Below, piece after piece: positions 51,985-53,562 of a DNA stretch of 64,000 nt. Numbering within the stretch: position 1 is the stretch's first letter; each line of letters begins with the position of its first letter. The position numbers and the translations under genes were made by a program. The DNA is from Acidihalobacter yilgarnensis (GTDB taxonomy: Bacteria > Pseudomonadota > Gammaproteobacteria > DSM-5130 > Acidihalobacteraceae): positions 2,198,501-2,262,500 of the forward strand of contig NZ_CP017415.1 in the NCBI RefSeq assembly GCF_001753245.1, in the 5' to 3' direction. Under the pieces are notes generated by a model, which worked only from the letters and a program-made list of their open reading frames with translations, made no database searches and was not told where the DNA came from.

Positions 51985-52015
51985 TAAAAAAGGGCTCCTT
52001 ACGGAGCCCTTTTTG
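51985..52015. terminator. Bidirectional intrinsic terminator
   Basis: The stem AAAGGGCTCC/GGAGCCCTTT with a TTAC loop is flanked by an A run on the left and T run on the right. It can end both dapE transcription and transcription from the AT-hook gene on the opposite strand. Confidence 0.88.
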
Positions 52016-52054: not shown

Positions 52055-52897
52055 TCATGCCTTACGTGGCCGGCCACGACGCTTCTTGGGGGCCGCACCT
52101 TGCTGAAGTTTGGATAACTCGCGTGCCTGCCAATCTTCCGCAAACTTAGCAACGACCTTTTCACGCATTTCAAAAAGTTTCATCAATGCATTTTCGCGTT
52201 TCGTGACTTCCTTCAGTTCAAGCTTGAGAGTTGCAAGCTCAAGTTTGGCTTCCGCCAGCTTTTCCTTCAAATTGGCCTTAATCGCACGATCACGCTCCAC
52301 CGCGCTCGTAGCGTTTGCAGAACGAACAACAGCAGCCTTCGGCGGACGACCCGGACCACGCTTCTTCTTCGGCGCGGCAGCGACGACAGAAACTGCGCTC
52401 GCAGCCTTCGGCGGACGACCCGGACCGCGCTTCTTCTTCGGCGCGGCAGCGACGACAGAAACTGCGCTCGCAGCCTTCGGCGGACGACCCGGACCGCGCT
52501 TCTTCTTCGGCGCGGCAGCGACGACAGAAACTGCGCTCGCAGCCTTCGGCGGACGACCCGGACCGCGCTTCTTCTTCGGCGCGGCAGCGACGGCAGAAAC
52601 TGCGCTCGCAGCCTTCGGCGGACGACCCGGACCACGCTTCTTCTTCGACGCAACAGCGGCAACATCAGCAGCATCCGCAATCATGGCTTTTGCCGGGCGG
52701 CCAGGGCTGCGCTTTTTCTTGGTGCCATCGACGGCCTTAACAGCCGTCTTCGCCGTCTTCTTGGTCCGAACCGTTTTTTTCTTGGCAGGCGCGGCCGGAC
52801 TCGCGGCCGATGCAGGCTCTGAGTTCGTCGTCACCTTAGGTTCGACGACTTCACTACCAGCGGGCTGCTGATTCATTTCCACGTTTTCGACCGACAT
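52055..52897 (-). CDS. AT-hook repeat DNA-binding protein (histone H1/HMGA-like)
   Basis: The 280-residue basic protein has seven AT-hook-like cores: SPGRPAK (64-70), five RGPGRPPK units spaced 23 residues apart (88-188), and RRGRPRK at the C-terminus (273-279). The units are separated by Ala/Val/Ser linkers. Residues about 200-265 form a charged coiled coil. Such proteins bind the minor groove of AT-rich DNA and act as nucleoid or regulatory architectural factors; AlgP-like proteins of pseudomonads are a loose analogy. It is transcribed alone, with a terminator downstream. The partner or target is unknown. Confidence 0.8.
   Translation of the reverse strand: MSVENVEMNQQPAGSEVVEPKVTTNSEPASAASPAAPAKKKTVRTKKTAKTAVKAVDGTKKKRSPGRPAKAMIADAADVAAVASKKKRGPGRPPKAASAVSAVAAAPKKKRGPGRPPKAASAVSVVAAAPKKKRGPGRPPKAASAVSVVAAAPKKKRGPGRPPKAASAVSVVAAAPKKKRGPGRPPKAAVVRSANATSAVERDRAIKANLKEKLAEAKLELATLKLELKEVTKRENALMKLFEMREKVVAKFAEDWQARELSKLQQGAAPKKRRGRPRKA
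52332..52676. repeat. 69-bp tandem repeats within the AT-hook gene
   Basis: Units begin at 52332, 52401, 52470, 52539 and 52608, exactly 69 bases (23 codons) apart. The first four are almost identical (one or two changes) and the last diverges. Each encodes one AT-hook plus linker, so copy number can change in frame. Confidence 0.9.
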
Positions 52898-53073
52898 TCA
52901 AATTCCCCTTATTAAACAATTGTGATGCAATCATACTAGAATATATTCTCAAGGCATTCCAATACAAGCGCCGATTATCTGTTTTTCTGCTCCGATGAGC
53001 GGGACAACCCAAGAAACCGGCATTACGAATGCCGCTTCGTCATCGCCACAGACACACACTAACAATAGAAGAG

Positions 53074-53562
53074 ATGCCATTGAACCCGAACAAAAAAATG
53101 GATATTCGCGTAGGTCTGCCACGCAGATTACTCTCGATCGCGTACGACGGACTATTGATGTTCGCTTTACTTATCGTTGCGAACGCCTTACTGATTCCGT
53201 TCCTTCACGGCAAGTCGATTACACCTGGAAACCATCTCTACCAACTTTACTTGTTGTACGTCATCTATCTATTTTTCGCTTGGTTCTGGATACATGGCGG
53301 ACAGACGCTGGGCATGAAAGCCTGGGGTATTCATTTGGTATCTGACGATGGAAAACCCATCGGGTGGTGGCGCGCGACCGTTCGATTCTTCAGCGCCATA
53401 ATCTCATGGGCATTGCTCGGAGGTGGTTTCTTATGGTCCTTGGTCGATCGTGAAAAGCGAAGCCTGCACGACATTTTAAGTCACACTCGACTGATCCGGG
53501 TCGCAGCCACCTCATCGAAGCCGTCGCAGCGCGAACAAGCTGACGAAAAGGAAAAGGCCTAA
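53074..53562 (+). CDS. RDD family membrane protein
   Basis: The 162-residue protein has the RDD pattern: RVGLPRRLLSIAYDGLLMFALL, two or three more hydrophobic segments, QTLGMKAWGIHLVSDDG, and the late LWSLVDREKRSLHDILSHTRL. RDD proteins are inner-membrane proteins of mostly unknown function, some linked to transport or Na+/H+ exchange. The ATG at 53074 gives the family-like start; an ATG at 53098 is possible. Its last 51 bases overlap the lptG 3' end on the opposite strand. Confidence 0.85.
   Translation: MPLNPNKKMDIRVGLPRRLLSIAYDGLLMFALLIVANALLIPFLHGKSITPGNHLYQLYLLYVIYLFFAWFWIHGGQTLGMKAWGIHLVSDDGKPIGWWRATVRFFSAIISWALLGGGFLWSLVDREKRSLHDILSHTRLIRVAATSSKPSQREQADEKEKA

Follow-up and report, generated by a model that had tools for sequence, protein, structure and literature searches.

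The window analysed here is a 64-kb stretch (positions 2198501-2262500) of the Acidihalobacter yilgarnensis genome, which is a single contig of 3,566,941 bases. The window has a GC content of 59.2%. On its minus strand, at positions 52055..52897, lies a gene for an AT-hook protein, which starts with ATG and encodes 280 amino acids (aa). The protein is highly basic (net charge +48, pI 11.2), and it is laid out, from the N- to the C-terminus, as a weakly charged N-terminus, an AT-hook array, a helix and a C-terminal hook. It has seven GRP cores, at residues 66, 91, 114, 137, 160, 183 and 275, with spacings of 25, 23, 23, 23, 23 and 92 residues between consecutive cores. The five regular hooks read RGPGRPPK, within the longer KKKRGPGRPPK, and lie 23 residues apart. 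The other two hooks are diverged. The first is SPGRPAK, with its GRP at residue 66 (KKRSPGRPAK, residues 61-70, 52688..52717, minus strand), and the last is RRGRPRK, with its GRP at residue 275 (KKRRGRPRK, residues 271-279, 52061..52087, minus strand). A conserved C-terminal segment, spanning residues ~199-268 (52094..52303, minus strand), was predicted to form a single 70-residue helix.

The five KKKRGPGRPPK hooks are encoded by a 69-bp in-frame tandem array (52332..52658, minus strand). This was the only array reported by Tandem Repeats Finder (TRF) across the whole window, with a period of 69, 4.7 copies, 97% matches, no indels and a score of 612. At the DNA level the three middle units are the same, with 0 codon differences in each pair. 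Compared with these, the first unit has one synonymous codon change and one changed residue, and the last has in common with the others only the hook and its surroundings. Independent encodings of the 23-residue unit would be expected to show a mean of 15.7 codon differences, the lowest of 5000 trials still giving 8 (null model with the same 23 residues and the codon usage of five neighbouring genes). The middle units show none, so they are recent copies or are kept alike by exchange. The array is therefore not merely one protein motif that was selected several times. An assembly artefact was ruled out as the general cause of such arrays: the congeneric genome G001 and genomes of the families f57 and f10 bear arrays of their own, with other spacers. 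The preliminary description of this DNA had counted seven hooks, including five RGPGRPPK units 23 residues apart, had called the 69-bp in-frame repeats nearly identical and had proposed their recent expansion or homogenisation. The reading frame and the GRP positions agree with every countable point, the TRF result confirms the repeats, and the array together with the codon comparison supports the proposed history.

Several open frames overlap the gene. A 253-aa plus-strand frame (52110-52871) was rejected as a real gene and taken as a shadow; relatives exist for the 280-aa protein. A 137-aa minus-strand and a 141-aa plus-strand frame over the array were set aside in the same way. Such overlapping frames are probably shadows of the GC-rich codons in the 69-bp in-frame array. 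No Pfam or NCBIfam family matched the window protein at E ≤ 1. Elsewhere in the genome, the hook DNA pattern had one match, with no array in the 601 bases read around it, and a scan of the genome contigs with the whole window protein gave no matches. A whole-genome search with the Pfam AT_hook model was blank and, as it also matched 0 of 14 control genomes, uninformative.

The gene was found in all five genomes sampled from the Acidihalobacter family (Acidihalobacter and kin), with one genome per species, and an order-level search drew the same five. G000 (the window genome), G001 and G002 are congeneric, and G003 and G004 belong to a sister genus. Hook number differs between the species: seven in G000, six in G001, at least three in G002, and four each in G003 and G004. 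The preliminary description had suggested that hook number may vary between strains; the variation seen in these genomes is between species. The G002 count is a lower bound, as the contig ends inside the array. In this draft genome the gene is interrupted by the ends of contigs 1 and 2 (L009 and L012), the first of which falls within the hook array, and the copy appears truncated, with L009 a fragment. The helix and the terminal hook were retained in all five genomes, with RGRPRK identical throughout. Spacers are alike among most units within one array and unlike between species, with AASAVSVVAAAP in G000 (69-bp unit) and SATAAATAAP in G001 (63-bp unit, 4.8 copies, 91%). Spacers that are uniform in each array and species-specific argue for homogenisation within the gene after the species split. 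In G003 and G004, hooks are present without a TRF-reported DNA array.

Relatives were found well beyond the Acidihalobacter family by means of the helix. A profile built from the five C-terminal regions (A2) matched 34 of 369 genomes drawn from the class, and a 31-row profile (A3) matched 33 of 369, in 24 of 271 genera. These 31 rows comprise the distinct proteins encoded at the matched loci of the family search and the A2 class search; seven class-search places without a locus were omitted (G141:C2, G363:C165, G267:C232, G338, G143, G042 and G078). G141, G267 and G363 each had a second helix-profile match elsewhere in the genome. In a draw from the phylum, 5 of 398 genomes passed E ≤ 0.001, and the sole strong match was the window's own genome. 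The other four matches (1.3e-4 to 8.5e-4, one of them within the class) were partial and were taken as helix noise, and an extension of the family beyond the class was rejected. In the reverse direction, a 26-row profile from outside the Acidihalobacter family was compared with all 920 open frames of the window and matched a single one, the window protein (E 2.2e-18); with the basic tail removed, the helix of this protein still reached E 1.8e-16. This test is reciprocal and not blind, as those rows had originally been found with the profile of the family.

Across the 31 rows, one L, one R, one E and one W position of the helix are each at least 90% conserved. The AlphaFold model consists of a single helix over residues 11-80 of 92, with a mean predicted local distance difference test (pLDDT) score of 86.2 and a pLDDT above 90 over the core. 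The C-terminal coiled coil of the preliminary description was borne out in part: a helix is predicted, and this prediction is compatible with a coiled coil. A sequence search of the PDB with the helix profile returned seven sequences at E ≤ 1, the best at 0.036 and none significant. With the exception of AT_hook, every Pfam model and all NCBIfam models matched at most one of the 31 rows each at E ≤ 0.01. Among these, HC2 (Pfam, E 0.0032) and hist_H1_lk_Burk (NCBIfam, E 0.00042) each matched one row, both weakly. One unnamed PHROGs family matched two rows, and four others matched one each. The C-terminal helix marks an apparently unnamed family that neither Pfam nor NCBIfam captures. All 31 proteins are basic, with a pI of 10.5-12.0 and a net charge of +18 to +60 (L009 being a fragment).

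The tails of these proteins vary. We labelled them by the GRP count in the tail, which gave 12 hook tails (≥2 GRP), four single-hook tails and 15 tails without GRP, most of the latter being Lys/Ala-rich and H1-like. L037, with AGRPAVKK-like units, is a doubtful member of the hook class. Five H1-like rows were run through TRF, and all had short tandem repeats of their own, with periods of 9-63 bp. In three H1-like rows of family f155 (L019, L024 and L025), KKKAAS-type repeats flank the helix on both sides. Hook number also varies within genera, with nine against six hooks in f10/g11 and five against three in f57/g58 (two genomes each). On a tree of the helix, at least three changes were needed for the hook label (bootstrap range 2-4), of which well-supported branches force one. 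The H1-like label needed five changes, three of them forced, if single-hook rows are placed outside the H1-like class. All three tail labels together needed seven changes, against a least possible number of two. Several rows of this tree are on long branches, and 7 of its 28 inner branches are open. A basic tail is kept throughout the family while its chemistry and length vary, and the tail type has likely switched more than once. The earlier remark that multi-AT-hook proteins are unusual outside a few bacterial groups was incomplete, as the window gene belongs to a syntenic family, of which it is the local hook-tailed representative, and 12 of the 31 proteins compared have hook tails.

Synteny was examined at 19 of the 33 places outside the Acidihalobacter family, mostly better-scoring ones on longer contigs, and at one G001 stretch, the window and L043. 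The RDD-family gene, xerD or both were near the gene at 17 of the 19 loci. RDD adjoins the gene in 14, xerD lies on its other side, directly or a few genes off, in 16, and both are present in 13. The usual order is valS-holC-pepA, lptF-lptG, RDD on the opposite strand, the family gene, xerD and dsbC. At L048, L053, L059 and L062, the family gene and xerD are separated by mobA-, mobB- and moeA-like genes. At seven other loci (L044, L046, L047 and L049-L052) the gene stands directly before xerD and then dsbC on the same strand, in an operon-like arrangement, with 13-141 bases between the open frames of the family gene and xerD. From the shared RDD/xerD neighbourhood it follows that the hook-tailed and the H1-like-tailed rows are probably orthologues and not chance helices.

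In the window, the left half of the usual order is present (lptF, lptG and a divergent RDD-family gene identified by Pfam, 53029..53562, plus strand). The right half is replaced, and dapE is found there, as it is in the place of xerD in all three Acidihalobacter-family loci examined. No RDD frame was seen between lptG and the family gene at L043. Examples of these labels were verified with Pfam (RDD, LptF_LptG, Peptidase_M20, Peptidase_M17, Phage_integrase, DsbC_N, MoeA, MobB and NTP_transf_3) and NCBIfam (LptG, LptF and XerD exceeding the cut-off); XerD was over the TIGR02225 cut-off in both proteins tested. The names dapE (an M20 peptidase) and pepA (an M17 peptidase), as well as holC, valS, arsC, dapD, dapC and glnD, are ones that we presume from gene order and a reading of the proteins. 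Between the convergent dapE and AT-hook genes, a likely two-way terminator was read by eye at 51985..52014 (an A-run, the stem-loop GGGCTCC TTAC GGAGCCC and a T-run); a scan had no entry for this stem-loop.

Upstream of the gene, a perfect 12-bp AT-rich palindrome, AGAATATATTCT (52938..52949), occupies positions -52 to -41 relative to the start codon. Each of the three congeneric genomes (3/3) contains it exactly once, always in this promoter. The reversed control pattern has zero places in the same genomes, and by our own arithmetic base composition predicts ~0.03 copies per genome. The palindrome starts at -52 in G002 and at -53 in G001, and other conserved stretches surround it. Across the five Acidihalobacter-family genomes, the AT content of the 150 bases upstream of the gene is 56-68%. 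A plausible -10 element, TATATT, was read by eye within the palindrome in G000 and G001, 16 bases after TTGTAT; a promoter scan gave no minus-strand site at the palindrome. The idea of a palindrome common to the whole protein family was rejected. Perfect palindromes of at least 10 bases occurred in 12 of 30 upstream regions, against 6.1 expected from mononucleotide shuffles, but the rows are related and their motifs differ. An AT-rich core is what the hooks should prefer, so feedback of the protein on its own promoter would be the simplest guess, and the single-copy palindrome suggests that the gene may be autoregulated.

We give a probability of about 0.6 to the reading that the window protein is a nucleoid-associated architectural protein of an HMGA/H1-like kind, in which a disordered, minor-groove-binding tail would be carried on an oligomerising helix and which would probably repress its own gene. 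The parts of this reading that were observed are the anatomy of the protein, the homogenised repeats, the conservation, the synteny, the family-wide high charge, and the palindrome and its single copy. In HMGA, it is the GRP core that inserts into the minor groove at A/T tracts. From the sequence features we infer that the long tail of the window protein, which is probably disordered, would bind DNA with six hooks, at a spacing that would let each insert into the minor groove at an A/T tract of its own. Through the C-terminal helix of ~70 residues, at least two chains would pair, and the hook that follows the helix would provide one more DNA contact. One oligomer could then clamp or bridge AT-rich stretches of the 59%-GC genome. 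Gain and loss of 69-bp units in frame, by slippage or unequal exchange, would let hook number differ between species with the helix kept. Self-repression would probably act through the AT-rich promoter palindrome.

A number of observations count against this. The RGRP form is found in the last hook only (KKRRGRPRK), and the array hooks have RGPGRP instead. The Pfam AT_hook model (PF02178) fails to match the window protein even at E ≤ 1, and it matches 5 of the 31 relatives (best 2e-17). The predicted template modelling (pTM) score of the helix model is 0.45, and heptad scoring is modest, with at best 62% hydrophobic a/d positions. The palindrome is absent from both sister-genus genomes (G003 and G004), and other families have different palindromes or none. 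Given the overlapping -10 element, promoter descent alone could possibly explain the palindrome. Two of the 19 loci examined (L057 and L058) have neither RDD nor xerD near the gene. RNA and polyphosphate are further possible ligands of such basic tails.

The best-placed alternative is a granule tether, in which the helix would dock on a polyphosphate or polyhydroxyalkanoate granule and the basic tail would tie the granule to the nucleoid, as is thought for AlgP/PhaF in Pseudomonas. As far as the accessible part of its description goes, AlgP combines a predicted helical domain with a disordered repeat tail, associates with polyphosphate granules, which depend on it to be evenly spaced (PMC9239181); PhaF is given the same kind of tail there. 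The helix has conserved W, R and E residues, which could serve as a docking surface. However, the order is reversed. AlgP has an N-terminal helical domain and then a C-terminal KPAA tail, according to the same part of that source (PMC9239181), whereas in the window protein the tail comes first and the helix last, and the tail consists of GRP hooks without a KPAA repeat. Among the labelled recurrent neighbours, which are only part of all neighbours, there was no granule gene. We consider this role unlikely for the window protein.

Less probable still is that the protein is an architectural partner of XerD, serving XerCD recombination at dif or the terminus. This would account for the presence of xerD downstream on the same strand at 16 of the 19 outside-family loci, 13 of which have RDD on the opposite side, and for the distances of 13 to 141 bases between the open frames at the seven measured loci. 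Yet dapE replaces xerD at three Acidihalobacter-family loci, and molybdenum-cofactor genes intervene at four others. XerCD is general in distribution, whereas the gene occurs in only 33 of the 369 class genomes sampled, and the neighbourhood may be inherited without function. We give similarly little credit to an RNA- or ribosome-binding basic protein or a charge buffer that plays no part in chromosome structure; the high charge common to all 31 proteins speaks for this, but plain charge needs neither GRP hooks kept in all five members of the Acidihalobacter family nor an identical C-terminal RGRPRK.

As a nucleoid-associated protein, the window protein may work by analogy like AlgP, Hc2 and CarD; the features compared do not support membership in any of these. 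AlgP was compared by domain order and tail make-up, as given in its description, and not by sequence comparison. HMGA proteins are not known to have a helix or a tandem DNA array. Eukaryotic HMGA resembles the window protein in its several short hooks, carried on a chain that lacks a fixed structure, and differs in its three hooks and acidic end, as stated in the accessible text (PMC4482583). Hc2 (HctB) of Chlamydia is described, in the part of the source available, as a basic repeat protein that binds DNA and differs in size from strain to strain through 36-aa elements (PMC2848022). Hc2 and similar Bordetella and Burkholderia proteins have Lys-rich pentamers in place of hooks, and neither Hc2 (Pfam PF07382) nor the histone H1-like NF038053 (NCBIfam) matched the window protein at E ≤ 1. 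The C-terminal domain of CarD from Myxococcus xanthus is, in the available portion of its description, unfolded and HMGA-like, carries four RGRP hooks and binds AT-rich DNA, and it is combined with an N-terminal RNA polymerase-binding domain and an acidic segment (PMC4374960). The window protein has a C-terminal helix instead, and a CarD-type N-terminal domain was not among its Pfam matches at E ≤ 1, as there were none.

Among the matches listed in a search of the open-access literature, from which subscription papers are excluded, titles and the starts of abstracts held no description of such a family. For xerD together with AT-hook, the listed matches were prophage papers only. In the available main text of a pangenome study of nucleoid-associated proteins in Acidithiobacillia, the term 'AT-hook' does not occur (PMC10561277). 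An earlier description of the family may exist.

For the family as a whole, we tentatively propose, at somewhat less than even odds, that one orthologous, synteny-held chromosomal protein of Gammaproteobacteria has swapped its tail between HMGA-like hooks and H1-like Lys/Ala repeats more than once, with arrays re-expanded and homogenised, and has kept its oligomerising helix and its lptG/xerD site. Bacterial basic repeat proteins, AlgP and Hc2 among them, are difficult to separate from look-alikes of composition. Here, the conserved helix and the conserved genomic place make orthologues recognisable, and hook and H1-like tails appear interchangeable on the same scaffold. The natural variants, which include those of cultivable acidophiles, make it testable whether the number or kind of minor-groove contacts tunes the bacterial nucleoid. 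If the tail switching is true, the family would offer a natural series for the effects of hook number and tail type, and in Acidihalobacter the promoter palindrome would be a built-in feedback.
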